DNA of 63,156 nt from a virus, in IMG/VR virus record IMGVR_UViG_3300032236_000575, positions 1 through 63,156 of that record. One strand, given 5' to 3'. Shown piece after piece: positions 124 to 62,706 of the stretch (positions are counted from its first letter, which is position 1; the number at the start of each line of letters is the position of its first letter). The position numbers were made by a program, and so were the translations under genes. The notes beneath the pieces are model-generated. The model made no database searches, was not told the DNA's origin, and worked only from the letters and a program-made list of their open reading frames with translations.

Positions 124-1384
124 CATACTGCGCGTGAGCGAACCCGTCATCGTGGATCGGCAACTCGTGCTGCTCCAGAACAGCACTTTCACCGATGTGC
201 CGGAAAGGTGACTCCGAACTGATCTTGTTGAACAGTGCCCCATGCACCTCGGCAAGGAGTCTGCTGTCCTCTGCACTCATCTCGTCTTGATTGCCTTCCT
301 CGGCCACCGGGGCAAGCGCGGCGGCTGGCGCAGCACCGACTCCCCACTGACCGTAATCACTTGTGTACGAATCGTTTTCATCGCATTGCACGCCACCGAC
401 AGTGACGAACCCGGCGTGCTGGAAAATGTTGATGCGAGGATCAACATTGCTGCCGGACCACGCTTCTGTCTGCCATGCCCATCGCGCTGTCTGATTACTC
501 AGTGCTCTCGACACCGGCCAGTAGCCGCCATAGATGCCGACACGATCGGGACCGAGAACAGAAGCGACACCGCGAAGATAGTCATCGATCTGCGCCTGCT
601 GCTCAGGAGTCGCATCCCAATCAGCACTGAAGTAGATCGGCCTATCAGCAGGACCGTTACACGAACGATGCTGAGCGTCAGCACTTTTCGCATCCTCGAC
701 ACCGGCCACGAACCCACCGAGCATGCGATCGGCAGTTGTCTCCCAGTTCGACACGATCGCCACACCAGCAGCATTCAACTGCGCTGCCTCGTCCGGCAAC
801 AACAACTTACCCGGCAAGCTCGCACCACCATCGGACAGATAGCGGCACACGAACTTGTACCCGGCGTTGATGATGTCGGCACCGTTGATGCGGCCACCGG
901 CATAGTCGATACCGCGAACATCGCTCCCGATCGGACCCGGCAGATACCACCACTGATTCCAGTAGGAGTTAGTCGGCTCAACCGCGCCGGACCCGCGAGT
1001 GCAAACACCGCAGTCACCGTTGTCCTCCATCAGCACACCATCAACCTCGATGTTTGTGTGACTGTATGGACCTCCGCCGCCGTGATGGATCGAAACTATC
1101 GCGACAGCGTCAGACGGAACATCCTGCGGCCCAGCGACATTCACGGTCCCGTAAGGGCCGACAGTGCCTGGACCGGCAATTGGATTCCATGATTCAGTGG
1201 AAACTGGATGACCCCAAGACATGCCATCACCTTTGGTGAGTGCCTCAAGGATCGATCCGACTAGACCCGAGCAGTCAGTGCCATCAGAGAGCGTGTCAGT
1301 CCATGCACCGCCGTAGACGTACTGCTGCCCGAGCCTAGCCTGGAAGATCGACTTCGCCAGTTCCACATTCTGGCGAGGTATCAA
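1..1384 (-). CDS. lysA: Endolysin (LysA), N-terminal 461 codons; continues at the other contig end
   Basis: This gene degrades host peptidoglycan. I read it from a TTG at 1384, just after the stop of the upstream gene and preceded by GGAG. The frame is open to base 1 and continues in phase to the stop at 62693, giving about 574 residues. Residues 5-115 look like an NlpC/P60 peptidase: YVYGGAW, then DCSGLVG with catalytic Cys38, and His109 in YSHTNIEVDG. Residues about 140-345 match the DUF1906/Rv2525c-like glycoside-hydrolase-like fold (DVRGIDYAGG, GYKFVCRYLS, PIYFSADWD, GIYGGYWP). A linker leads to the C-terminal part annotated at 62693-63156. The order peptidase, DUF1906, membrane segment is unusual. 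The catalytic assignments are by family resemblance only. Confidence 0.85.
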   Translation of the reverse strand, partial: MIPRQNVELAKSIFQARLGQQYVYGGAWTDTLSDGTDCSGLVGSILEALTKGDGMSWGHPVSTESWNPIAGPGTVGPYGTVNVAGPQDVPSDAVAIVSIHHGGGGPYSHTNIEVDGVLMEDNGDCGVCTRGSGAVEPTNSYWNQWWYLPGPIGSDVRGIDYAGGRINGADIINAGYKFVCRYLSDGGASLPGKLLLPDEAAQLNAAGVAIVSNWETTADRMLGGFVAGVEDAKSADAQHRSCNGPADRPIYFSADWDATPEQQAQIDDYLRGVASVLGPDRVGIYGGYWPVSRALSNQTARWAWQTEAWSGSNVDPRINIFQHAGFVTVGGVQCDENDSYTSDYGQWGVGAAPAAALAPVAEEGNQDEMSAEDSRLLAEVHGALFNKISSESPFRHIGESAVLEQHELPIHDDGFAHAQYVEWAASRGDEAAYTLLKEIAAADPKQSPDRAADIKLAQAVL

Positions 1385-3869: not shown

Positions 3870-5042
3870 TCACGCAGCTTTTGCTTCTAGTGCGGCGATG
3901 CGCTCCTTTGCCGCGTCAAGTTCAGCTTTGAGATCTTTAATGGCAGCGGTGAGGTAAGGGACAACTCGCGAGTAGTCCACTGTCTGAGGAACAACATTGC
4001 CGTTGGTATCGACGGCATCCTTTTGCCCCATAACCACATGTGGTAGCACATCTTCGATCTCGTGGGCGATGAAGCCAGCATCGGGATCTCGTGCCGCCCT
4101 CTTCCAGTTAAAGGTTACGGGCCGGAGGGCGCACACGTCTTGTAGTCCGCCCGAGATGTCTGCAACGTTTTCCTTGAGTCGGTAGTCAGATGCGCTTTGG
4201 TATGTGACTGTGCTTCCGTTGGTGTAGACCTGGCCGACGTAGAGGTTGCTTGATCCGTAGTAGAAGCCGATCACTCCGCCGGTTGAGTTAACACGATGAT
4301 GCCAACTGGCAAACGATCCATTTGCACTGTCGTAGCAGTGAAAGGAACCGGCGTGATTGTTTCCGACTCCGTACACGTCCAGGGCACTGTACTGATTGAT
4401 GTACACCGTTGTGTTGCCGGATCCATCGATGAAATGCGCTGTGCCGGAACGAAAGTCCATCGTTCCTCTGCCAATCACGCCACTTGTGCCGCCTGACACC
4501 ACAATTCGGCCATCGTAATCAATCAGGGATGGGCCTGAGTTGAAGTCGATGTAGGGCGAGTTGTTGGTTCCGTTTCCAAGGTTGAGAGATCCGCCGTTGC
4601 CGTCACTCAGGGAAGCAATGCTTCCGTTGCTCCATGCGATGGCTGGGTCTGTCAGCGTCTTGCCGTTCAGCTTCGTATCGTTGTACGCCGCTCTCCAGTT
4701 AGCACCATCGCTCGCGAGGAACACTGATCCACCGGCAGGGATCGTCAAAGTTGCGCCATCAACAGTTTGAGATGACGTAGTCGCGATCGTCACCGAGTTG
4801 CTGGCAAGAATGTTCTTCAGCAAGTAGGACGAGGTGTTGCTTACTGCTGTGGGCAAGGTGATGGTTGACGTTGTGTTGATGAGGTAGACGTAGGTTGTGT
4901 TTGCGCCGGATGCCAGTGTGGTTGTGGTTGTGAGAGTTGTTGTGCCGCCGTATTTTACGGATGAGTTGACATCGGTGTTGGTGGCGTTCACGTCCGATGC
5001 GTTTAGCGTGTCGCCTGCTGCAAAGTTAGTTTTCAACGCCAC
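3870..5042 (-). CDS. Tail fibre with C-terminal intramolecular chaperone (peptidase S74)
   Basis: A 390-aa fibre. Residues 1-270 are a Thr/Ser/Asn-rich beta shaft. From about residue 282 the sequence ASDYRLKENVADI starts the S74 autoprocessing chaperone, with Ser before DYRLKEN as the expected cleavage site. FNWKRAARDPDAGFIAHEIEDVLP and a terminal coiled coil (DLKAELDAAKERIAALEAK) follow. In known S74 proteins this domain drives trimer folding and then cuts itself off. The mature fibre would therefore lack roughly the last 105 residues. Confidence 0.9.
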   Translation of the reverse strand: MALKTNFAAGDTLNASDVNATNTDVNSSVKYGGTTTLTTTTTLASGANTTYVYLINTTSTITLPTAVSNTSSYLLKNILASNSVTIATTSSQTVDGATLTIPAGGSVFLASDGANWRAAYNDTKLNGKTLTDPAIAWSNGSIASLSDGNGGSLNLGNGTNNSPYIDFNSGPSLIDYDGRIVVSGGTSGVIGRGTMDFRSGTAHFIDGSGNTTVYINQYSALDVYGVGNNHAGSFHCYDSANGSFASWHHRVNSTGGVIGFYYGSSNLYVGQVYTNGSTVTYQSASDYRLKENVADISGGLQDVCALRPVTFNWKRAARDPDAGFIAHEIEDVLPHVVMGQKDAVDTNGNVVPQTVDYSRVVPYLTAAIKDLKAELDAAKERIAALEAKAA

Positions 5043-5075: not shown

Positions 5076-8000
5076 TTATCGTTTGATCTCAACCGAAACC
5101 GCGCCGGGATACCCGTTCGACGCGGTGAGCGTGTTTGCCACTGCACCGTCCGATGTTGTCAGGTCTTTTGTGAGAAGCCGGTATCCCCAGTTTGCAACGC
5201 TGATGGCAGATACCCTTGCCGTGTAACCGGCAGGTGCTGCGTTGAAAGATGGTGCCGCGCCTGCCACTACATAGATGTCCATGAAGTGGAGAACCTGCGA
5301 AGCTCCCGATGTGTCAGACATGGTGATCGCTGGTGCCGTGCATGACGCAGCCTGTGCAGTCGGCTGTGTCGCTGCGCTTCCGCCAATCGGTGATGCGCCC
5401 TGACCCGAGAGCACGGCAACGATCATCTCGCCAGCATTCGTCCATGTCCCGCTGGTGTGGTTCGTCGCCGTCGCCACTGCGTAATACAGCTTCTGATAGC
5501 TGTTCGATTGAATTACTGACCATGTCGGCACTGTCCCTGCAGCGGATGGAACTGTCGGTGTGCTCACGCCAACCGCAAAGATGACGATGATGTCACCGAC
5601 ATTGTGCGAGGGGATGGTGACTGACGTTCCGAACGCACCGTTCGAACCCTTGTACTGCACTGCTTGTTTCGCCGTTGCCGACAGAGCACCAGAGCCAGAT
5701 ACTGCCCCGGCCACAGCCATGCTGGGAACAGTAGAAACCGAAAGCAAGCCGGAACCAGCGAAAGCAACTGCACTGCTGTAGATCTGAGACAGCGATGCTG
5801 TCAGTGCGCCAACACCAGTTTGGATGCCCTGCAGCAGAGGCACATTGATCGAACTCAAGGATCCCGAGCCGGAGAGTGACATTGCATTGCTGTAGATCTG
5901 AGACAGGGCAATCGAGATCGTTCCGATGCCGGACTGGGCATCATTCACGATTGGTGTGACCAAAGCCGACAGGGAACCAGAACCGGATGCCGCCCCTGCC
6001 ACAGCAGCACTAGGAACAGCGAAGGCCGAAAGCAGGCCAGAGCCGGACAGAGAAGAGTACGAAGATATTCCAGAACCCAACATAAGCGGCAAGACATAGG
6101 GGAACTGCGCCGCACTTGCAAATGCCGACAGAGCACCAGAGCCGGATGCTGAACCGGCCACCGCGACGATGGGTGAAGTGGAAGCCGAGAACAAACCAGA
6201 TCCGGCGAAACTGGTTGCCCTGCTGAAAAGCTGTGAAACAACGAAAGCCACTGTGCCAGTGCTTGATTGAGAGTCTTGCAGCAGCGGTGCGCCGGTTGCC
6301 CCGAGAACACCCAAGCCAGAAAGCGACACCACACTGTTGTAGATCTGAGACAGCACAGCAGCGAGAGCACCAACGCCGGACTGAACTTCGTTGATCAGAG
6401 GTGAACTAGTGGCCGACAGAACTCCAGATCCGCTGAGCGAAACGGTTTTCTGATAGATCTGCAGGAGAAGGAACGCGAGTGTGCCAACGCTTGTTTGTGC
6501 ATCGCCAAGTAAGGGCGAGTCGATCGCGTGCAGGCCGTCGAGAGAACTGTCCCAATCAGATGCGTCTAGCTCTCCAGAAGATGTGAGTCTTGCAGCGACA
6601 GAATAAAGTTGGTAGGCCAGGGACGCGAAGGTTCCCTCTCCAGCTTCTGTCGCTTGATTGGCGGAGAACTGGTAGTCGATGGCCTGCAGGCCGTCATTGA
6701 TCGCGGCATCGTAAGTTCCCTCGCCGCTGTAGAAAACGAAGTAGGGGTTTGTCGAGTAAGTCCACGCCGACAAGCCGCTGTAAAGATAACCGAATTGGCT
6801 TGTGTCCTGATTACTGAACGCACCGTTGTTGATGTACGCGACGATGTTGCGAGCTTTGTCATCGCTAGTAATCAGTCCTTGGCCCGACAGCGACACCGAG
6901 GTGCGAGCGATCTGCTTGATCGATCCACTGAAGTTGCCCTGGCATGTGAACTGCGGTGCGCGAGCAACTTCTAACGAATACCAACCATCAGCGAGTGGAA
7001 CAGGTCGCGGAGGTGGATCAACAGACCACTGCCCCGTCTTCGGTTGCTTAACGGGAAAAGGGGCGGCATCCCACGATCCTCCGCTCTGGCAGCTTTCTCC
7101 AACCTGCTGAAGATGTTGCAGCGCAATCTGATACGAGGTCAAACCGTGCATCGGGTCGCCCGGTGGCGGCTGCGTCGGATAGAGAACGTGACCTCCGCCG
7201 CCGTTGCTCAACACATGGCTCGAAATGTAGTTCAGCGTGTCGATGAAGCTCTTCACCGAACCGATGTTTGGTGTCAGCAGAGTAGTGGCAAGCCACTGAA
7301 GCACGTCGGTGCTCGTCGCATACTGAGTGATGAACGCAGCCGCGTTGACAATGTCTTGCCCACCGAGGCTGTCACCAACCCCGGCGATGATCTCGTCCTG
7401 GTTGACGAAGTCCCACATAATGTTTGGTGTGTTTTTCAGTCTGAGCGATTCGGGAAAGCAGCCGTGACCGCCGGTTGTCGATCCCGGTATGTCGATGCAG
7501 CCGGACCACAGAGAACCCGGCCATGTGTGATTCGTTTCCCTGCACGGGTTACCAAAGGTCACACATGTAAGCAGGTCCGCTTGCCTGGATTGCAATGAGC
7601 CATAACGGATCTCATCGATGATCGAAGACATCAAAGCAGCACCCTGCGAGTAGCCGCCCACAGCGAAGGGGCCAGGCTTGGAATTGATCAAATCAATAAC
7701 CACTTGCTTGCCTTGAGCGAGCGACGTGATCATCGGCAGTGCCGCTGCCGGGTAATCGACCTTGATTGCATCCCACAGTTTTGCGTCGAGCATGAAGGGG
7801 AATGGATCGTTTACTGGTGCGCCGTCGAAGGTGAATGTTCTGCCGTCGATGCCAGGGACGAGGATTGTTTGTCCACCTCCGATCTGGCCGTAGCCGGAAC
7901 CGAAGATGTCAAACAAGAACGCCGTTCCCGTCGCATAGTAGAAACGCGGCCTCGACTGTCCGCCATCGCGATTGGGGATGTCGCGAGTCGGAATGTCAGC

Positions 8001-49425: not shown

Positions 49426-49494
49426 ATGCAAAAAACACGCTCTGACCTGCGTAAACGTCGCCGGCGAGAGGTGTTGTCCTACAACGAAATTGAG

Positions 49495-49574
49495 TGGAGC
49501 AGACGAGAATCGAACTCGCGTCCGGCCAGGTCCGCATGCGGATTTCATCTAGCCGTCGAAACCATCCCTGCCCC
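49495..49574 (-). ncRNA. tmRNA-like small RNA (tRNA-like domain only, about 80 nt)
   Basis: Read on the minus strand, the 5' end GGGGCAG pairs with CTGCTCC at the 3' end (7 bp) including G3-U70, the alanine-identity pair of tRNA-Ala and tmRNA. The tmRNA signature TGGTTTCGAC follows instead of a D-stem. A P2-like stem GGCTAG/CTGGCC is capped by TCCG-CATG-CGGA. The T-arm is GCGAG-TTCGATT-CTCGT. The discriminator is A and CCA is not encoded. It therefore has the tRNA-like domain of tmRNA but no tag-coding region or pseudoknots (normal length about 360 nt). No canonical D or anticodon arm can be drawn, so an ordinary tRNA is unlikely. A decayed tmRNA remnant is the main alternative. Confidence 0.7.
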
Positions 49575-51348: not shown

Positions 51349-52431
51349 CTACCCGAACATCCTCTCAATCGCACTCACTGCCGGATCATCACCCTCGGGA
51401 CCGAGATGGCCGTACACACCGAACGTTGTCCGAATGTCGGTGTGCCCCAACCGTTTCTGAATCACCAAAGGTGGAACACCGGCAGCGATAAGCCACGAAG
51501 CGTGAGTGTGCCGAAGATCGTGGATACGGGGTTGACGGTGCGCCGGTAGGCCCGTGCGCTTCATCGCCGGATACCACACGTTCGTGCGGAACGTGCCAAT
51601 CCTAATCTGATCACCGCGAGTGTTCGTGAACACGAAAGGCTCAGTAAGACAGAGCATTTCGAGTAAGTCTTTGCGGATCTTGATCGTGCGTATCGACTGC
51701 GGTGTCTTCGTCGGGCCGCTGCGGTAGCCGCTCTGACCTCGCCGGAAGCTCTTGTTAATCCTGACCGTGCAGTTGTCGATGTTCACGTCAGCCGGTGTCA
51801 ACGCCACCGCTTCGCCGAAGCGCACGCCAGTCTCGGCCAAGAACGTCACCAACGTCTTGTAGTGATCCGGTATCGCATCGAGAACCTTGCCGAACTCATC
51901 ACGCGAAAGAAACACCGGCTCCGCCGTTTTCGACGTGCGTGCGATCTTCACACTCTTGGCCGGATTCGCGTTCATGTCACCGCGATCGACAGCGACGTTC
52001 AGAGCAGCCGACAGAAGACCGTGCCGGTTGGCGATCGTCTTGCTCGACACCGTGCCCTCTTGAGCTAGCACCCACCGTTCCACATCGGAACGTTGCAACT
52101 CCCGCGCCGGGATCTTTCCGATGCTTGGCCGGATGTCCTTACGCAGGATCGTGCGGTACTCATCGCGAGTGTCTTCATTGATGCCCGTGCGGTCCTCGAT
52201 GTACCGCTCGACCATGTCAGCCACTGTGGCGTTATTGCCCCTTCTACGCTCCGCTGACTGACGAATAGCGTCCAGGGCACCACGAGCACCCAACGTCTTG
52301 ATCAGATCCGAAAATCGTTCCGCCATATCCATAGTCGGGAACGTGGTCGATGACTCGCGCCCCTCGATGCGATAGCGAACATTGAATGTTGTTGTGCCGT
52401 CTTTGCTGCGGTGGACCCGTATGGATGCCAT
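51349..52431 (-). CDS. int: Tyrosine integrase
   Basis: A 360-aa protein. It has an N-terminal arm-binding domain (ASIRVHRSKDGTTTFNVRYR), a core-binding domain (RNNATVADMVERYIEDR), and a catalytic domain with Arg in ETGVRFGEAVAL, HxxR in HDLRHTHASW, RLGHTDIRTTFG, and the Tyr nucleophile in VYGHL. It would recombine attP at 52.51 kb with host tmRNA DNA. It is complete, so the phage is probably temperate. Confidence 0.95.
   Translation of the reverse strand: MASIRVHRSKDGTTTFNVRYRIEGRESSTTFPTMDMAERFSDLIKTLGARGALDAIRQSAERRRGNNATVADMVERYIEDRTGINEDTRDEYRTILRKDIRPSIGKIPARELQRSDVERWVLAQEGTVSSKTIANRHGLLSAALNVAVDRGDMNANPAKSVKIARTSKTAEPVFLSRDEFGKVLDAIPDHYKTLVTFLAETGVRFGEAVALTPADVNIDNCTVRINKSFRRGQSGYRSGPTKTPQSIRTIKIRKDLLEMLCLTEPFVFTNTRGDQIRIGTFRTNVWYPAMKRTGLPAHRQPRIHDLRHTHASWLIAAGVPPLVIQKRLGHTDIRTTFGVYGHLGPEGDDPAVSAIERMFG
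52076..52092. promoter_or_regulatory. Degenerate palindromic site inside int
   Basis: CGTTCCA-CAT-CGGAACG has one arm mismatch and lies in coding sequence. It could be a real regulatory copy or chance. Confidence 0.3.
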
Positions 52432-52507
52432 GTGTACCTCTGTGTGGATAGCGGTGTGGAAACGATGTTTCTTGTCGCTTTTATCCCCTGCGAACTGCAG
52501 TTTTTAG

Positions 52508-52529
52508 TGGAGCTGCCGGGAATCGAACC
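52508..52529. other. attP: attP core matching the 3' end of host tmRNA (ssrA)
   Basis: On the minus strand this reads GG then TTCGATTCCCGGCAGCTCCA, the T-arm and acceptor 3' strand of mycobacterial tmRNA as I recall it. It lies 77 bp upstream of the integrase start in a gene-free stretch. Integration would restore the 3' end of ssrA. Some mycobacteriophages (for example cluster K) are known to use tmRNA as attB. Confidence 0.82.
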
Positions 52530-52637
52530 TCGCACCTAACAGCGATGTTTTTGCAGGTAGAAGCCACACTACACCCCTCGCAACACCACTGCGATATCCA
52601 CATGTGTGCCGATGCGAGCAGGGACGATGCACATCGA

Positions 52638-52788: not shown

Positions 52789-52834
52789 GCGATCTCCCCT
52801 CGTGGGCCAGTGTGAACAACTGATCTCCAATCAT
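52789..52834. repeat. Duplicated regulatory-type repeat, copy B, with a start-box motif
   Basis: Holds the same two blocks as 51186-51223 and, in addition, the box CTCCAATCAT (ATGATTGGAG on the minus strand) found before most genes at 53.5-59.3 kb. No convincing minus-strand gene follows it, so here the box may act as DNA rather than as a leader. Confidence 0.5.
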
Positions 52835-52871
52835 GGTGTTAGCAAGATCGCCTGGGCCTACACTTCATCGG

Positions 52872-53051
52872 ATGAGCGACATCTGCCCTCGCTGCGGCGA
52901 GATCATCGACGGCTATCCGGCCCTCTCGCGAGTAGACAACAAGACCAACATCTGCAGCCCGTGCGGCATGCGAGAAGCGTTGTGGGACTTCGCGCATCGA
53001 GACACCAATGACCCCATGCCGCCGGTTGACCGGCCAATCGAAACTACATAG
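52872..53051 (+). CDS. Zn-ribbon phage protein; lone plus-strand gene
   Basis: A 59-aa protein. CPRCGEIIDGYPALSRVDNK and ICSPCGMREALWDFA make a CxxC...CxxC zinc site typical of a widespread small phage protein. It is encoded opposite to all other genes and has its own promoter-like sequence. In lysogens it may be expressed from this region. The function is unknown. Confidence 0.8.
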   Translation: MSDICPRCGEIIDGYPALSRVDNKTNICSPCGMREALWDFAHRDTNDPMPPVDRPIETT

Positions 53052-53493: not shown

Positions 53494-53500
53494 TTCGATT

Positions 53501-53585
53501 CTCCAATCATTGGTGTTTGCGCGGAACTGAATGTTCCAGTCGGCACACCGGGCGGTGAAACCCGATGTGCCGGTGCAGCATTCAG
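53501..53585 (-). promoter_or_regulatory. Composite start element 1 (variant stem)
   Basis: The box ATGATTGGAG lies upstream of the start. Before it is a variant structure: outer stem CTGAATG/CATTCAG and inner stem CGGCACA/TGTGCCG. The outer stem touches the upstream stop codon. Confidence 0.7.
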
Positions 53586-53998
53586 TGCTGTACTACGTCG
53601 GCGTTGCGATACCGCCGCCCAACTGCAAGCAGAAACGCAACCTCCCTCGCATCAGCGACAGAATCACTGTATGCAATTACGCGGAAGTCATCGCGGCAAT
53701 CTTCGATCTGAACGGTGCCGTTGGCACCAGTAGCGAGCATGAAGCCCTCACCCTGGTCGAAGATGTAACAGTCACGGCAGATCCGCTCATCATTCTTGTA
53801 GAAGTAAAGCGGAGCATGATCGCCGCACTCACCGCAACCGTTGTCACAGTTCCTGCCGTCCAAAGCAAACGGATGCGTTGTATGGCAGTCAGGGCACCAG
53901 TACGGCTCTGCATCCGCACGCTGCTCTGCGTACATCTGCTCTGCCGACATGATCGGCTCTCCAGCCTCGTTGAGGTACTCGTTGACACCAAGCATCAT
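53582..53998 (-). CDS. Zn-ribbon protein, 138 aa
   Basis: The ATG at 53998 overlaps the stop of the small gene before it. Cysteine pairs (YWCPDCHTTHPFALDG, NCDNGCGECGDHAPL, ERICRDCYIF) give two zinc sites. The C-terminal FRVIAYSDSVADAREVAFLL is alpha/beta. The function is unknown. Confidence 0.65.
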   Translation of the reverse strand: MMLGVNEYLNEAGEPIMSAEQMYAEQRADAEPYWCPDCHTTHPFALDGRNCDNGCGECGDHAPLYFYKNDERICRDCYIFDQGEGFMLATGANGTVQIEDCRDDFRVIAYSDSVADAREVAFLLAVGRRYRNADVVQH

Positions 53999-54087
53999 CG
54001 AACACCTCCCCTGAGCATCAGAGCCAAGATGAACAGTGACCATACCGGCGTGAGAGCCAGCGAGGCCATGATCTCGTTCTTCTTCAT
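53995..54087 (-). CDS. 30-aa single-helix membrane peptide
   Basis: From ATG 54087, four bases after an ATGATTGGAGATCA box. KKNEIMASLALTPVWSLFIL is followed by a short basic tail. Its stop overlaps the next ATG. The box placement makes translation likely. Confidence 0.6.
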   Translation of the reverse strand: MKKNEIMASLALTPVWSLFILALMLRGGVR

Positions 54088-54093
54088 TGTGAT

Positions 54094-54177
54094 CTCCAAT
54101 CATGTTGTGTTACAGCGAGTCTGAGTGACTCAGCCAGCGCACAGGCCCGAAAGACTGTGCGCCGGAGCGTGACTCAG
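54094..54177 (-). promoter_or_regulatory. Composite start element 2
   Basis: Box ATGATTGGAG at 54094-54103. Inner stem GCGCACAG/CTGTGCGC with loop tCTTTCGGGc-type sequence. Outer stem CTGAGT/ACTCAG overlaps the upstream stop region. Confidence 0.75.
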
Positions 54178-54536
54178 TACTCCAGGTGCGAACCGTAGCT
54201 GCTGAAGTAGCGTTGCTCTGCAGCGACTTCGGCCTCGTACATGGCCTTCTGTTCTTCGTGCCAGTCGAGCTTCGCCAGCGTTTCCGCATCGACCTGGCTG
54301 CGATCGACTTCGTCAACTACGTTGCGCCCGTGGCACTCTTCGCAGGTCTTGTCATACATGCCTGAGCGGTAGTCCTCTGCGAAGTCGGGATCTTCATCGA
54401 AGTAGCGGTTGGGTACGCCGTTACTGAAGATGTCTTGAGTGCCGCCGCCGTTGCATGTTGGGCAGACGATCCTCACGCTGGGCAGGCGCAGTTCTTCCTG
54501 TCCGCCGTCTTCGGTGTCGATGGTTATCTCGATCAT
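54174..54536 (-). CDS. DnaJ-type Zn-finger protein, 120 aa
   Basis: CPTCNGGGTQDIF and CEECHGRNVVD form the paired CxxCxG motifs of DnaJ-like zinc fingers. No J domain is present. The C-terminal half is acidic and helical. It overlaps the upstream gene as ATGA, so this gene needs no start element of its own. Confidence 0.7.
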   Translation of the reverse strand: MIEITIDTEDGGQEELRLPSVRIVCPTCNGGGTQDIFSNGVPNRYFDEDPDFAEDYRSGMYDKTCEECHGRNVVDEVDRSQVDAETLAKLDWHEEQKAMYEAEVAAEQRYFSSYGSHLEY

Positions 54537-54838
54537 TTTGATTCTCCCTTGCTCTCAAGAACATTCGCCAAAGCGTCAACGAAACCGTTCTCCCATTCCT
54601 GGGCGACTTGCCGTGCATGCAGAACTGATTCAACCTCGCGGTACAGCATTGCTCGATCTTTGTTGATCGGGCATGCCGGTTGACGAGGATTCATCGCATA
54701 CACCTTGACGATTCGGTCTGGCTCGATGAGGTGTTCCTCGCCGGTCATGTCGAGCGTGATGTATGTAGCTCCGATGCCCTCTGCACGCTGTGCGCGTTTC
54801 GAGCCGTCTGGAAACATTGTGTCCCAGTCGAGTGTCAT
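54533..54838 (-). CDS. Hypothetical 101-aa protein
   Basis: From ATG 54838, directly after a composite element. GATYITLDMTGEEHLIEPDR is beta-type and MLYREVESVLHARQVAQEWE is helical. No family is recognised. Confidence 0.55.
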   Translation of the reverse strand: MTLDWDTMFPDGSKRAQRAEGIGATYITLDMTGEEHLIEPDRIVKVYAMNPRQPACPINKDRAMLYREVESVLHARQVAQEWENGFVDALANVLESKGESK

Positions 54839-54843
54839 GTGAT

Positions 54844-54925
54844 CTCCAATCATTGTTGTGTTGAGACTGAGTAGCCTCACCCGCATGCATCGGCCCGAAA
54901 GACGATGCAGCGGAGCGGAACTCAG
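54844..54925 (-). promoter_or_regulatory. Composite start element 3
   Basis: Box ATGATTGGAG at 54844-54853. Inner stem GCATC(g)/(c)GATGC replaces the usual CACAG/CTGTG. The outer stem is CTGAG/CTCAG. The inner-stem change is compensated on both sides. Confidence 0.72.
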
Positions 54926-54928
54926 GCT

Positions 54929-55312
54929 TTAGCTCGCGATGAGCTTGGCCGTATGCGACAGCTTTGTAGCCGCCCACGTCCACTTGTGATGATCTGCAAG
55001 ACCGAGATCCCGCAGCACGCTCAAGCGGCTGCTCGCTGCGCTCTGAGAAATGTTGAGCAGCGTTGCAATGCCACGCGAGGTGATGCCATCGGGAAAAGCC
55101 TTGAGGACTTCAAGGGCTTCCAGATAGATCGTTCGCACGGGGATCATGCGCTGATCGTCGTCGCCGCCGGAAACAAGCTCCAGGGCGAACGGCTTCGACT
55201 CGGGAGCATCGTCCTTCTTGGTTCCCAGGTCGATCATCGAGCAGAGAGCGGAAAGCTCTTCAACGGTGTCAGTGCTTACTTCGATCCCGTTGATGTTGAT
55301 CTTGTATGACAT
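54929..55312 (-). CDS. Winged-helix protein, 127 aa
   Basis: The C-terminal half is a wHTH (GITSRGIATLLNISQSAASS, RLSVLRDLGLADHHKWTWAA). The N-terminal half carries ININGIEVSTDTVEELSALC. It is probably a transcription regulator of this early block. It is preceded by a composite element. Confidence 0.65.
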   Translation of the reverse strand: MSYKININGIEVSTDTVEELSALCSMIDLGTKKDDAPESKPFALELVSGGDDDQRMIPVRTIYLEALEVLKAFPDGITSRGIATLLNISQSAASSRLSVLRDLGLADHHKWTWAATKLSHTAKLIAS

Positions 55313-55319
55313 CTGATTA

Positions 55320-55401
55320 CTCCAATCATGGTTGATGTGAGTCTGAGTGACTCAGCCAAACCACAGGCACCGAAGTGACTGTGGCCTGGAGCGTGACTCA
55401 G
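55320..55401 (-). promoter_or_regulatory. Composite start element 4
   Basis: Box ATGATTGGAG at 55320-55329. Inner stem CCACAG/CTGTGG and outer CTGAGT/ACTCAG. The upstream stop codon lies in the element. Confidence 0.73.
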
Positions 55402-55655
55402 ACAGAATTGCTAGACCACTTGATGACCGCGAACTGCGCGATCACGGCGAGATCCTTTTCGAACTCGATGCTGTCATCGATGTCGAAGGAGAGATCCGCG
55501 ACTTGATGTTCATTTTCCGAGAGGGCGAAGGTGGTGCCCTTGGAGTGAGCCTGCGGCCAGCCGCGATTGACCAACGCAGCCTCGATGAGGTCGCGGTAGT
55601 CGATCGCGTCGGCTATGGGAGGAACCTGTGCCTCGACGTAGACACTTGTTGTCAT
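55398..55655 (-). CDS. Hypothetical 85-aa protein
   Basis: From ATG 55655 after a composite element. SVYVEAQVPPIADAIDYRDL and DLSFDIDDSIEFEKDLAVIA are alpha/beta. No family is recognised. Confidence 0.55.
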   Translation of the reverse strand: MTTSVYVEAQVPPIADAIDYRDLIEAALVNRGWPQAHSKGTTFALSENEHQVADLSFDIDDSIEFEKDLAVIAQFAVIKWSSNSV

Positions 55656-55663
55656 GTTTCGAT

Positions 55664-55745
55664 CTCCAATCATTGTTGTGATGTGAGGTGAGTACCTCAC
55701 CCAACGCACAGACCCGAAAGCCTGTGCGCTGGAGCGGAACTCACA
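55664..55745 (-). promoter_or_regulatory. Composite start element 5
   Basis: Box ATGATTGGAG at 55664-55673. Inner stem CGCACAG/CTGTGCG with CTTTCGGGT loop. The outer stem is changed to GTGAGT/ACTCAC, a compensated pair swap relative to other copies. Confidence 0.75.
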
Positions 55746-55752
55746 TCCCTAC

Positions 55753-56394
55753 TCAGGACTCGTTGACATCAGTGATCTCGTAGTCATCCCAGTAGTAGGT
55801 GTCGATGTTCTCAGTGACATAACTCGACGTATCGTTTTCCACGATGTCGCGAGCGGCATCCTTAGACGATGCCTCGACTTCGAACTCCACGTCATAGGTG
55901 ACTCGCACGGTGACGTTGTAGGTCCGCTTCAGACCGTCCAGGCCAAGGCCCGTCAACGCATCGTGCAATTCATCCCACTCGGCGGACTCATCATCGAGGT
56001 ACTGTTCCGCGTATTCGCGCAGAGTGCTCTGCACGTTGTTGCGGAAGGTCCGCAGATCATTCTCTGCCTTCTTCGCTACCTGCGAATTGGCCTGAGACAG
56101 AATGCATTTGTCTCCGAACTTCTCCAGCAGATCGATGACAACCTCGTTGTTGGTGACATCGGCTGAGCCGTCGAAGTTCTTCGACACGCGCCACTGCGAT
56201 TCGTCATCGACCGGAACGTAGTTGATTGACTTCGTTGTCTGGTTGTAGACGATGCCGGACCTTGTCTCACCGTCACCGACGTGGACGATCTTGCCGGTCC
56301 AGTAGCCGGTCACATCTTCGCCTCGTACCAACCGGGCACCAACGGGAAGACCGTCGATGACCTGAGCGAAGGTGGTGGTGGTGGTGATACTCAT
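55753..56394 (-). CDS. Hypothetical protein, 213 aa
   Basis: From ATG 56394. The N-terminal part is beta-rich (GLPVGARLVRGEDVTGYWTG). The middle is coiled (NSQVAKKAENDLRTFRNNVQ). A C-terminal VTVRVTYDVEFEVEASSKDA domain has a ferredoxin-like pattern. No family is recognised. Confidence 0.6.
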   Translation of the reverse strand: MSITTTTTFAQVIDGLPVGARLVRGEDVTGYWTGKIVHVGDGETRSGIVYNQTTKSINYVPVDDESQWRVSKNFDGSADVTNNEVVIDLLEKFGDKCILSQANSQVAKKAENDLRTFRNNVQSTLREYAEQYLDDESAEWDELHDALTGLGLDGLKRTYNVTVRVTYDVEFEVEASSKDAARDIVENDTSSYVTENIDTYYWDDYEITDVNES

Positions 56395-56400
56395 TTGATT

Positions 56401-56490
56401 CTCCAATCATGGTGTTTCGGGCTGTCGATTGAGCAACCCACTCAGCGCACAGACCCGAAAGCCTGTGCGCTGAAGTGCTGTTCAATTCAG
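56401..56490 (-). promoter_or_regulatory. Composite start element 6
   Basis: Box ATGATTGGAG at 56401-56410. Inner stem TCAGCGCACAG/CTGTGCGCTGA (11 bp). The outer stem uses ATTGA/TCAAT instead of CTGAGT/ACTCAG, again compensated. Confidence 0.77.
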
Positions 56491-56939
56491 TGTGAATCGA
56501 TCTGCAAAAGGTGAACGCCGATGTCATCGTTTTCGAGAACTTCGATCGCCATCTGTTCCGGCGTGTACTCGTTCTCGTAGCCGTCGCGAAAGCCTGCGTC
56601 GGCCAGATCGCTGACACCGATGCCGTACTTACGCATCAGAACAGCGTTCACTTCTTCCATCCATTCTTCAAACGAAGTGTCGGACGCTCCGATGTAGCGC
56701 AGGTACAGAACCCCTTCGCGCACTGCGGCGCGATACTCTCCGCTGTGCAGTGGATTGGTGCCGCCCTTGCCTACGTTGATGGCAGACGCGTACTGATACG
56801 CGGTGCTTTTCGTCAGCTTCGCCGGATAGCGTGCCCAAGTCATCGGTTTCGCTTTCAGCTTTTCGGCAAGTTGCGATGACTGATTAACCCTTCCGCGCTT
56901 CTTCGATGCGGGAAGTTCGTCAACGAAAGTGAGCTTCAC
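56487..56939 (-). CDS. Hypothetical protein, 150 aa
   Basis: I prefer GTG 56939, right after the box. The basic N-terminal part (RYPAKLTKSTAYQYASAINV) and a compact C-terminal YLRYIGASDTSFEEWMEEVN suggest a nucleic-acid-linked protein. No family is recognised. Confidence 0.55.
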   Translation of the reverse strand: MKLTFVDELPASKKRGRVNQSSQLAEKLKAKPMTWARYPAKLTKSTAYQYASAINVGKGGTNPLHSGEYRAAVREGVLYLRYIGASDTSFEEWMEEVNAVLMRKYGIGVSDLADAGFRDGYENEYTPEQMAIEVLENDDIGVHLLQIDSH

Positions 56940-56946
56940 TTTTGAT

Positions 56947-57029
56947 CTCCAATCATGTTGTGTGTTTGAGCCTGAGTGACTCACCCAACGCACAGACCGT
57001 TAAAGCCTGTGCGCTGGAGCGTGACTCAG
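56947..57029 (-). promoter_or_regulatory. Composite start element 7
   Basis: Box ATGATTGGAG at 56947-56956. Inner stem CGCACAG/CTGTGCG and outer CTGAGT/ACTCAG. Confidence 0.75.
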
Positions 57030-57031
57030 AA

Positions 57032-57613
57032 TCACTTGTACTGCGTAACCTGCAGTCGATCGCCGTACTGAACCACGGCGATAAGCTCGCCGCTTTCATC
57101 AAGAAACTTCGACTTGAAGTCGGTGCCCTCGTTGCCGGTGTCATCGACCTGGAACACGATCACTTCACCAACCCTGGCAGCGTTTAACGCTCCCTGAATG
57201 ATGTCGCCCTCGTGAATGTCGAACGCCGGAACTGAACCCGTCGTCGGCCACAGGAACTCGTAGTGCTTACCAAGCGACTCCACGTCATACACGTCAGTGT
57301 TGATATGGAACCACTTGATGACTTCCTGCTTGCGGCCATGAAGCTCAATCTCTTGGATCTCGGCAGTGAACACTGCGTTGATCGCATCAGCGAGATCGAT
57401 CTTGTTCCTGACGGCCCACTCGGCATCGGGGAAGTAGTTGAGTACATCCCACGTCAGTTCGCTGTACTCGCTGTCGCTCTCGCGAGACTTGCGTCGGCCT
57501 GCGTCATCGACATCGATGTAGGCATCCGTTTCCCTGATGTGCGCCACGTCTTTGTGGAACGTGTGGCTCGTCAGGTACGAGATGGCATCGGTGCCAGTAA
57601 CGGTCTTGCTCAT
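57032..57613 (-). CDS. Hypothetical protein, 193 aa
   Basis: From ATG 57613 after a composite element. It contains YIDVDDAGRRKSRESDSEYS, YFPDAEWAVRNKIDLADAIN, and a beta-rich C terminus with GEVIVFQVDDTGNEGTDFKS. No family is recognised. Confidence 0.6.
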   Translation of the reverse strand: MSKTVTGTDAISYLTSHTFHKDVAHIRETDAYIDVDDAGRRKSRESDSEYSELTWDVLNYFPDAEWAVRNKIDLADAINAVFTAEIQEIELHGRKQEVIKWFHINTDVYDVESLGKHYEFLWPTTGSVPAFDIHEGDIIQGALNAARVGEVIVFQVDDTGNEGTDFKSKFLDESGELIAVVQYGDRLQVTQYK

Positions 57614-57619
57614 GTTGAT

Positions 57620-57702
57620 CTCCAATCAATGTGTGTTGCGGAACTGAATGTTCCATAGGCGGCAGGGACTGTTGCGCCCCTGCCGCCGCGTGCAGCATTC
57701 AG
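57620..57702 (-). promoter_or_regulatory. Composite start element 8 (variant stem)
   Basis: Box TTGATTGGAG (one mismatch) at 57620-57629. A strong inner stem GGCGGCAGGG/CCCTGCCGCC and outer CTGAATG/CATTCAG, the same outer variant as element 1. Confidence 0.72.
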
Positions 57703-57900
57703 CTATGCGGGTTGGAAGTTGAAGTACACCCTCGGTGAGTGTGTGAACTTCAGCGAGCCGGTGACACCGTCAGACTTGCGTTTGACGGCGACGAACGGAG
57801 CCATAAAACCTTGCACCACAAAGTCGCGTTGCAATGTTTCGGTGTCCCACGTTTCGCCTTCGGGCACGCTTCCATCGCTGTAATCGTGAACGTGAATCAT
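57703..57900 (-). CDS. Hypothetical 65-aa protein
   Basis: From ATG 57900 after a composite element. A beta-rich peptide (RDFVVQGFMAPFVAVKRKSD, RVYFNFQPA). No family is recognised. Confidence 0.5.
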   Translation of the reverse strand: MIHVHDYSDGSVPEGETWDTETLQRDFVVQGFMAPFVAVKRKSDGVTGSLKFTHSPRVYFNFQPA

Positions 57901-57908
57901 TGAATGAT

Positions 57909-57996
57909 CTCCAATCATTGGTGTTGTTTGAGTCTGAGTGACTCACCCGCATGCACAGGCATCGATGTGATGACTGTGCAGCGGAGCGCGACTCAG
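57909..57996 (-). promoter_or_regulatory. Composite start element 9
   Basis: Box ATGATTGGAG at 57909-57918. Inner stem TGCACAG/CTGTGCA and outer CTGAGT/ACTCAG. It ends on the upstream stop codon. Confidence 0.74.
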
Positions 57997-58298
57997 GCTT
58001 GTCCGTAGATCGCCGCTACGATCTCGTCGCTGCTCTTCCCCGCGAGCAACATGTCGCGGATCTGAGCTTCTCTCTCCTCGGCCCTGGCATGCACGGCAGC
58101 GTTGTGCGCCGCCGTCTGCTGGGCACGCTGGCACACCGGGTAGTGCGGCCCGATTGCTTTGCCGTTTGCGCGGCCCTTAGTGCCAACCTGAGCGACGTAC
58201 CACTTGCCGTCCTTGCGTTGTTCCCAACGCACCTCGCGATCACCGCAGTCGCGGCACTCGTATCGGTTGCGGTCAAGCTTCTTCAGCTTCGACTCCAT
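57993..58298 (-). CDS. Zn-binding protein, 101 aa
   Basis: From ATG 58298. A zinc ribbon-like N terminus (RYECRDCGDREVRWEQ, then PVCQRAQQ) and a helical C terminus with AEEREAQIRDMLLAGKSSDE, an HTH-like segment. It may bind DNA. Confidence 0.6.
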   Translation of the reverse strand: MESKLKKLDRNRYECRDCGDREVRWEQRKDGKWYVAQVGTKGRANGKAIGPHYPVCQRAQQTAAHNAAVHARAEEREAQIRDMLLAGKSSDEIVAAIYGQA

Positions 58299-58305
58299 GA
58301 TGAAT

Positions 58306-58382
58306 CTCCAATCTGAGTTGTATCGATTGAGCAACTCACCCAACACACAGGCATCGCTGTCTGTGTGCTGGAGCGAAGCTCA
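58306..58382 (-). promoter_or_regulatory. Composite start element 10
   Basis: The box has lost its 5' bases (CAGATTGGAG) at 58306-58315. Inner stem ACACACAG/CTGTGTGCT-type and outer TGAGC/GCTCA, compensated against other copies. Confidence 0.7.
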
Positions 58383-59234
58383 CTCGTCTTCGGCTTGCTT
58401 CCTGCTTGGCCGTCCGGCCTTCAGGATCTTGTTCACAGCGGCGAACACTTGCCGGATGTGCTTGTCTTGAACCTTGTCCTCATCGCCTGTCTGAGACAGC
58501 CAGTTCTGGATGTAGGCCCGTGACTCGGCAGCGTTCCAGTCGAGCAACTCGACTTCGTTCGCGATCAAGTACGCGACGGCCTCTGCCTGAAACTCGTGTA
58601 TCCCACGATGTGTCTGATACTCCGAAAGATTCTCTTTCGTTGTATGACCGAGAACGATGTGCGCGATCTCGTGGAACACCGTCTTCCAGGGATGCACAGC
58701 GACAGGGTTGATCGCGAACTTGCGATCGATGCTGTAACCCTGCGTGTTGCCATCGAGATGCTTGAAAGCAACCTTCGTGATGTCCAGTTGCTTCAGAGCA
58801 AGATCGAGATCCCAGTTGGGGATCTCAGGCCACTCGATCTCATCGCCGTCAGTCTGCGAGTAACCAAACACGGTTGCACGCGGCTTGAAGCCGATGAGGA
58901 TGCGTTGCTTCTTGCCTTGCTCATCGAGCAGAGGCTTACCGTTCTCATCCTTCTTGTCGATGATGAGAGGGTGAAGCACCGTCTTGGCTTTCTCGCCCTT
59001 ACGCACCTGCCGATCGAACTTCGTCTTCCAGAAGCCGTAGGGACCGATAGGTTCGTTCACACCTTGCAGCATGAGCCAGATCATGTTGGTGAACGAATAC
59101 TCGTAGAAGCGGCTGTAGGTGTCGCTCATCTTGCCGGGAGCTTTGAGTGCTTCCTCGATGAGCTTCCGCATATCAACCTCGGGAACGCTTGCGCGTGCCG
59201 TCTGCGTCTTGCGTGTCTTCGTGGCTGTAGCCAT
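58380..59234 (-). CDS. ArdC-like antirestriction protein
   Basis: A 284-aa protein. I prefer ATG 59234, which follows the box. The N-terminal ArdC-type region (SFTNMIWLMLQGVNEPIGPY, GFWKTKFDRQVRKGEKAKTV) is followed by a zinc metallopeptidase HEIAHIVLGH with a downstream Glu in EFQAEAVAYLIANE. ArdC proteins bind incoming ssDNA and protect it from restriction. Here it is the first gene of the accessory operon and should be made early. Confidence 0.87.
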   Translation of the reverse strand: MATATKTRKTQTARASVPEVDMRKLIEEALKAPGKMSDTYSRFYEYSFTNMIWLMLQGVNEPIGPYGFWKTKFDRQVRKGEKAKTVLHPLIIDKKDENGKPLLDEQGKKQRILIGFKPRATVFGYSQTDGDEIEWPEIPNWDLDLALKQLDITKVAFKHLDGNTQGYSIDRKFAINPVAVHPWKTVFHEIAHIVLGHTTKENLSEYQTHRGIHEFQAEAVAYLIANEVELLDWNAAESRAYIQNWLSQTGDEDKVQDKHIRQVFAAVNKILKAGRPSRKQAEDE

Positions 59235-59362
59235 GTTGATGATCTCCAATCATTTGTGCCGTGAGCAATGCGGCTCTGATGCTCCGAAGCACCTTGCAAC
59301 ACGAATGCTGCAAGGCGATCGGTTCGCCAGAGAAACTGACAAACGAATGATTGGATTGGAGT
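59235..59362 (-). promoter_or_regulatory. Structured leader of the ardC-like gene with start box
   Basis: The box ATGATTGGAG at 59244-59253 is paired here with an inverted partner (AATGATTGG at about 59346-59354), giving a 9-bp long-range stem. It encloses a CCTTGCA/TGCAAGG hairpin. Unlike the other copies, the box itself would be sequestered. Confidence 0.55.
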
Positions 59363-62352: not shown

Positions 62353-62706
62353 CTACTGCCCCGGCTGAGTTTCGTTGATGCCCAACGCTTTCCGCACCTC
62401 GTCAGCAGGCTTACCCTCAACGAGAACGGCGAACAAACCTGACAGCATGTGCAACACGGTTTGGCCGTGATACTTCTTCGTCAGGATCTCCGCGAGCACG
62501 GTCAGTTGATCCAACCGGCTTGGACTCCACCACACCTCACCGGGCTGATGATTCGGATCAGCACCGGCATGGCGGTTCACCCAAGGATGACCGAGATCCC
62601 AGTCCTGGTACATCGTCACGCCGGACCACGGCAGAGGCGGATAGTTGGGCTGGTTAGGATCTCGACCGTCAAGCTGGCCGCGCACCTCGTCGTCAGGAGT
62701 TGCCAT
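62353..62706 (-). CDS. Small lysis-module protein, 117 aa
   Basis: Starts inside the endolysin end and stops one base before lysB. It has PPLPWSGVTMYQDWDLGHPW and a helical C-terminal half (QTVLHMLSGLFAVLVEGKPA). Close packing suggests a LysB accessory or a split-off N-terminal part of it. No family is recognised. Confidence 0.55.
   Translation of the reverse strand: MATPDDEVRGQLDGRDPNQPNYPPLPWSGVTMYQDWDLGHPWVNRHAGADPNHQPGEVWWSPSRLDQLTVLAEILTKKYHGQTVLHMLSGLFAVLVEGKPADEVRKALGINETQPGQ

Follow-up and report, generated by a model that had tools for sequence, protein, structure and literature searches.

Candidate intercistronic RNA modules, each a covarying hairpin followed by a ribosome-binding box, in a small-gene operon of an actinobacteriophage

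The stretch of DNA analysed here, which we call the window, is the whole 63,156-base IMG/VR virus record IMGVR_UViG_3300032236_000575, an actinobacteriophage record whose large terminase shares 63% identity with cluster F mycobacteriophage terminases and which carries a tyrosine integrase gene at 51349-52431. From 59.3 down to 53.1 kb it holds an operon of 13 small genes, all on the minus strand like the other genes of the region, and at 11 of them the 81-97 nucleotides (nt) between the upstream stop codon and the start codon are filled by a composite element, a hairpin followed by a box that contains the Shine-Dalgarno sequence. The two other genes start in an ATGA overlap with the preceding gene and lack the element, as the original prediction, made from the sequence alone, had said. 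All the elements that it listed were found, on the minus strand, as ten full copies and a variant at 59244, and to these we add an orphan box at 52825 that was absent from its list; the statement that nearly every gene carries an element is true of this operon but not of the genome as a whole. The features are as follows, with gene products in amino acids (aa).

53526..53587, minus strand: hairpin of element 53501; outer stem CTGAATG/CATTCAG, inner stem CGGCACATCGGG/CCCGGTGTGCCG; fold -36.6, z -7.1
53497..53510, minus strand: box of element 53501, ATGATTGGAGAATC; start codon 53493; 117 aa, DUF3846
54120..54179, minus strand: hairpin of element 54094; upstream stop TGA within CTGAGT
54090..54103, minus strand: box of element 54094, ATGATTGGAGATCA; start 54087; 30 aa
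54866..54927, minus strand: hairpin of element 54844; CC/GG mid-helix subtype
54840..54853, minus strand: box of element 54844; start 54838; 101 aa
55342..55403, minus strand: hairpin of element 55320; CAC-UUCG-GUG loop, stop TGA in the stem
55315..55329, minus strand: box of element 55320, ATGATTGGAGTAATC; start 55312; 127 aa, weak winged helix-turn-helix match
55687..55746, minus strand: hairpin of element 55664; GTGAGT/ACTCAC, 52-nt core identical to that in contig L346
55660..55673, minus strand: box of element 55664; start 55655; 85 aa
56427..56488, minus strand: hairpin of element 56401; ATTGA/TCAAT
56397..56410, minus strand: box of element 56401, ATGATTGGAGAATC; start 56394; 213 aa
56971..57031, minus strand: hairpin of element 56947
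56943..56956, minus strand: box of element 56947; start GTG 56939; 150 aa
57643..57704, minus strand: hairpin of element 57620; CTGAATG/CATTCAG subtype
57616..57629, minus strand: box of element 57620, TTGATTGGAGATCA; start 57613; 193 aa
57933..57998, minus strand: hairpin of element 57909; stop TGA in the stem
57905..57918, minus strand: box of element 57909; start 57900; 65 aa
58327..58385, minus strand: hairpin of element 58306; TGAGC/GCTCA, GCGA loop
58302..58315, minus strand: box of element 58306, CAGATTGGAGATTC; start 58298; 101 aa
59273..59333, minus strand: variant hairpin of element 59244; unrelated sequence, two-tier layout kept, UUCG loop; fold -33.5, z -5.1
59240..59253, minus strand: box of element 59244; start 59234; 284 aa, ArdC N-terminal domain, PF08401
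53071..53132, minus strand: terminator-like stem with a T-rich tail at the operon end, read from the sequence; the automatic scan did not list it
52821..52834, minus strand: orphan box within GCCCAGGCGATCT/AGATCGCCTGGGC, without the standard hairpin, read from the sequence

In the sense RNA, each element presents, from 5' to 3', the upstream stop codon, an outer stem, a mismatched joint, an inner stem, a loop, a linker, the box, and the start codon. In 5 of 10 copies the stop codon falls within the 5' arm of the first stem; in the others it begins 3-11 nt ahead of that arm. The outer stem has 5-7 pairs (CTGAGT/ACTCAG, GTGAGT/ACTCAC, ATTGA/TCAAT, CTGAATG/CATTCAG, or TGAGC/GCTCA), the joint usually consists of a 1x1 mismatch, two pairs, a G.A-type mismatch, and one pair, and the inner stem has 10-12 pairs, for a predicted total of 23-25 (about 24) per hairpin. 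The loop is UUCG in 6 of 11 copies, on differing closing stems, and GCGA in one, and a CA-rich linker of 12-20 nt leads to the box.

The claim that the stems keep pairing while their bases change was borne out. In 8 copies, 96.3% of cells are paired, and both sides have changed in 9 of 20 pairs; with 11 copies, including a homologue from L346, the figures are 95.9% and 13 of 20, and none of 500 shuffles matched this, although the copies are paralogues of one genome and the shuffle counts are thus not independent probabilities. When the structure was slid along the 11-copy set, 21-57% of cells were paired. Each hairpin also folds far better than its dinucleotide shuffles (z from -3.3 to -7.5), and in all 12 comparisons the sense RNA exceeds the antisense in stability, by 1.5-16 kcal/mol. 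An RNA structure is therefore supported for the hairpin. A DNA-level site, such as an operator, a promoter, or a site of recombination or cassette exchange, would have dyad symmetry that only resembles an RNA hairpin, but the advantage of the sense strand comes from G-U pairs and loops, the elements have a single orientation and always stand between a stop and a start, no sigma-70-like site is present on the coding strand of the region, and the layout is kept at 59244 and 53501 despite very different sequences. We consider such a site very unlikely, even though the dyad symmetry itself, the operator or promoter readings of the ESAS elements of cluster K phages (PMC3203893, PMC11373665), and the L346 homologue speak for it.

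That homologue lies in the one other viral contig with an element of this type. It shares with the window an identical core of 52 nt, around which the outer stem is compensated, while the best-matching proteins of the two viruses are just about 60% identical, and apart from this shared core the originally suggested recombination hot spots find no support. L346 is a different phage that encodes WhiB-like and DnaB-like proteins and a DnaQ-type protein 59% identical to that of the window, and it has a tRNA-like RNA before one gene and the window-type hairpin before another, with CAATTGGAAGGGA after both. Built from 8 copies, the covariance model proposed as a check recovered the other two full copies (53501, E-value 1.9e-10; 57620, E 7e-7) and gave a weak match to the 59244 variant (E 0.013). 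Among 44 TerL-related records and 80 DnaQ-type loci it found no relative, and outside the operon no convincing match. Neither blastn of the elements against phages and plasmids nor an Rfam search at the elements (E up to 5) gave any match, the latter to a curated family. Two further candidates, L347 (the sole genome_contigs match) and L348, look like chance. The element family is rare within the sequences searched.

The box is nearly invariant. Nine of the 11 listed sites, and also 52825, carry ATGATTGGAG exactly, with TTGATTGGAG at 57620 and CAGATTGGAG at 58306, and TGATTGGAGATCA with up to two mismatches has 12 matches in comparison with 1.68 expected and a maximum of 5 in 100 shuffles; the 14-base pattern is, however, too unspecific for scanning sequence collections. 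The distance from GGAG to the start codon is 5-9 nt in the 11 elements. The original prediction had likened the element to the start-associated sequences (SAS, ESAS) of cluster K mycobacteriophages, and for SAS and the box this holds: the 12 boxes agree in their position over the Shine-Dalgarno sequence, in spacing (3-9 nt before the start in SAS), in copy number, and in conservation beyond the Shine-Dalgarno sequence, but their consensus, ATGATTGGAGATCA, does not match the cluster K consensus GGGATAGGAGCCC. The box is SAS-like and belongs to that type, with a new sequence. Two outlying sites may be mentioned here: the orphan box lies in the loop of the GCCCAGGCGATCT/AGATCGCCTGGGC hairpin (52821-52880, minus strand), with only a tiny TTG-started reading frame downstream, and on the opposite strand a box-like ATGATTGGATTGGAG (59347-59361, plus strand) lies in a non-coding stretch upstream of the operon.

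Such near invariance might also reflect an RNA-binding regulator, from phage or host, for which the internal loop or the box is the target. The letters of the box allow a small hairpin whose loop holds GGAG (TGAT[TGGAG]ATCA), as in CsrA-type or coat-protein operators, the 3' variants of the box keep pairing in most copies (GATT/AATC, TGATT/AATCA, TTGAT/ATCAA), and the G.A-type mismatch recurs between the two tiers. This mini hairpin is, however, weak (pair probability 0-0.67) and absent at 58306 and in L346, a search for CsrA in the record found none, and the symmetric GGG/CCC ends of the cluster K SAS mostly change without compensation, so that we find a regulator of this kind improbable. A general SAS mini-hairpin with the Shine-Dalgarno sequence in its loop was likewise rejected, as the departures from GGG/CCC in seven cluster K phages are mostly uncompensated, with one compensated CGG...CCG.

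Besides the two-tier hairpin, a second, mutually exclusive hairpin can be drawn, in which the 3' strand between the tiers pairs with the linker and the outer 3' strand becomes the loop. Its helices differ in sequence (TGAGTC/GACTCA, GTGAGGT/ACCTCAC, TGAGGCT/AGTCTCA, TGGGTTG/CAGCCCG, TGGAA/TTCCG, GAGTT/AACTC, GAGCA/TGCTC), and when linkers were swapped among copies, the pairing sum fell from 168 to 144.1 (standard deviation 7.4; P 0.0002, or 0.0005 with eight distinct classes), although single copies are weak in this test (P 0.03 to 0.5). Thus, the element may be bistable, which is a lead and not a proof. The translational switch put forward originally is a possibility, since the alternative hairpin covaries: the 3' strand of the two-tier stem can pair either with the stop-bearing 5' arm or with the linker (for instance, GAGTC[ACTCA]GACTC), and a ribosome stopping upstream would thereby alter the folding around the next ribosome-binding site. 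An alternative helix is present in all copies, in many different sequences, and the inner stem begins 8-9 nt past the stop codon in 5 of 10 copies. On the other hand, the main stem is itself partly self-complementary, and destroying the hairpin shifts the accessibility of the Shine-Dalgarno sequence only slightly (0.48 vs 0.38) and that of the start codon not at all. We therefore view a switch as rather unlikely; the idea that the hairpin exposes the Shine-Dalgarno sequence was dropped owing to the small effect.

In two relatives of the window, the equivalent slot holds other RNAs. The first (IMGVR 3300036793_000052; G006, L220) has a TerL 65% identical to that of the window, and its ArdC-like protein shares 58.6% identity with the one encoded by the first operon gene. 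It carries five or six copies of a start box of its own, AACAAGGAGATTCGAA, at 3.8-6.3 kb, and type II hammerheads at 4014-4074 and 5366-5427, scoring 51.5 bits (gathering threshold 37) and 33.3 bits, each directly before AACAAGGAGATTCGAA. The second (IMGVR 3300019776_000296; G051, L435-L438) codes for proteins homologous to two from the operon (25.8% and 32.6% identical), and boxes such as AACACAAAGGGAGAGAACATG stand ahead of about a dozen of its starts. Its tRNA-like structures, and the hammerheads of both relatives, were identified by computation and reading alone. The hammerheads of G051 are three, at 62684, 61823, and 61440, of type II with a complete core, two of them with U15.1-A16.1. 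Pseudoknots of 4-5 pairs between loop I and the tail were computed for 4 of the 5 hammerheads of both relatives and are readable in the fifth. A relaxed scan of the window and ten other sequences found only these five and none in Markov controls, and a stricter scan, over 4.09 Mb of loci with much overlap and redundancy, found only four of them.

The tRNA-like structures of G051 are nine, besides a transfer-messenger RNA (tmRNA)-like one, all on the coding strand, with none in five Markov controls. They lack a normal anticodon arm; ARAGORN called no tRNA at these sites, and the Rfam tRNA model reached its cut-off at one (29.2 vs 29). On the minus strand at 52-64 kb, they and the hammerheads occupy successive intercistronic gaps, most of them before the standard box, and two-tier hairpins (60075) also precede boxes. 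A tmRNA-derived domain is found in the window as well.

49492..49574, minus strand: tRNA-like domain of tmRNA; RF00023, 59.4 bits (gathering threshold 47)

This 83-nt RNA is the tRNA-like domain alone, with a G-U third acceptor pair and without the tag-coding part; it lies in the gap upstream of a start preceded by a Shine-Dalgarno sequence and is possibly a related module. A similar domain with a CCA end occurs in G051 (201-283, minus strand). Just upstream of the integrase gene of the window, 52505-52577 (minus strand) is likely the core of the phage attachment site (attP) and resembles a tmRNA 3' end (12.8 bits, below the cut-off).

Because hammerhead ribozymes and tRNA-like RNAs occupy the same slot in relatives, RNA processing is indicated, and the equal position, orientation, and downstream layout of hairpins, hammerheads, and tRNA-like RNAs suggest equal function. 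Hammerheads cut themselves, and tRNA-like RNAs are natural substrates of RNases P and Z. On these grounds, together with structure, strand, position, and covariation as computed here, we see an even chance that the elements are RNA modules between the genes of one long transcript, which is cut or end-protected at them into single-gene messages. In a polycistronic transcript, each module would start where the upstream gene ends, at the stop codon or just beyond it, and the sense RNA of the module would fold into the two-tier hairpin of about 24 pairs, followed by the CA-rich linker and the standard box. The hairpin would be the cutting or end-protecting site that leaves each message with a clean 5' leader, and the box would provide every message with a uniform ribosome-binding site. 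The cutter of the window hairpins would most simply be host RNase III, which their length seems to suit, as 23-25 predicted pairs between genes correspond to the roughly two duplex turns of an RNase III site. Intrinsic termination is not indicated, as a CA-rich linker follows every hairpin and none of the 11 appeared in the terminator scan. More weakly, a ribosome halting at the embedded stop may free the outer tier so that the alternative hairpin forms.

Several points weigh against processing of this kind. The window hairpins show neither a catalytic core (no hammerhead core, CUGANGA ... GAA ... NUH with three stems, is present in the window) nor a tRNA-like fold, their cutting is argued from analogy of position, and RNase III specificity is not readable from sequence. 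A stable hairpin could also merely insulate or stabilise the RNA, and the conservation of the box well exceeds the needs of processing. More broadly, and with somewhat less confidence than an even chance, we suggest that this actinobacteriophage lineage punctuates its operons with interchangeable RNA-processing modules and a phage-specific box, yielding single-gene messages that are individually translated. The proposed set would comprise bistable hairpins, type II hammerheads, anticodon-less tRNA-like RNAs, and a tmRNA-derived tRNA-like domain, each joined to such a box.

Since SAS and ESAS became known in 2011, no mechanism has, to our knowledge, been assigned to them. The covarying hairpin makes an RNA structure testable with compensatory mutants, and its positional equivalence to the hammerheads and tRNA-like RNAs of relatives predicts RNA ends between genes. 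If this is true, some phages set expression gene by gene through RNA punctuation, as organelles do. In mitochondrial transcripts, tRNAs punctuate the RNA between genes, and G051 and L346 likewise have tRNA-like RNAs between genes, where cutting by RNase P or Z is putative, whereas the window elements are not tRNA-like. In the early region of phage T7, the RNase III sites between successive genes are long intercistronic hairpins with an internal loop, as in the window; T7, however, is not known to have the conserved start box, and cleavage in the window is putative.

SAS have been described in cluster K mycobacteriophages and cluster EF Microbacterium phages (PMC3203893, PMC7302621) and, like the window box, are short, over-conserved, present in many copies around the Shine-Dalgarno sequence a few nt before the start, and confined to non-structural genes; their sequence is GGGATAGGAGCCC or GGGAAAGGACCCC instead of ATGATTGGAGATCA. 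In seven cluster K phages SAS hardly varies, and covariation is mostly absent from its symmetric ends. ESAS, like the window hairpin, is an inverted repeat directly upstream of the start box, but it consists of 17-bp repeats with promoter-like hexamers, reported not to covary or to support RNA pairing, and its authors argue against RNA hairpins (PMC3203893). The ESAS of Adephagia was later read as SigA-like promoters (PMC11373665), and TTGACA-type motifs occur in cluster K copies. The hairpins of the window exceed ESAS in length, 13 of their 20 pairs covary, and no promoter-like site with SigA-like hexamers was found on the coding strand at 52.4-60.1 kb; unlike reported ESAS in both respects, the hairpin is therefore not an ESAS, and the likeness first proposed is limited to SAS and the box. 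A further known arrangement is that of clustered hammerheads on either side of single prophage genes, RNA modules between phage operon genes near ard-type anti-restriction genes, as here, that have been proposed to cut transcripts into single-gene mRNAs; reduced self-cleavage was shown for one of them that has U15.1-A16.1 (PMC3088659). Hammerheads fill this slot in G006 and G051, whereas the elements of the window have no hammerhead core. Self-cleaving theta ribozymes are reported to lie near tRNA genes of gut phages (PMC10879173), so that phages elsewhere, too, pair ribozymes with tRNA processing.

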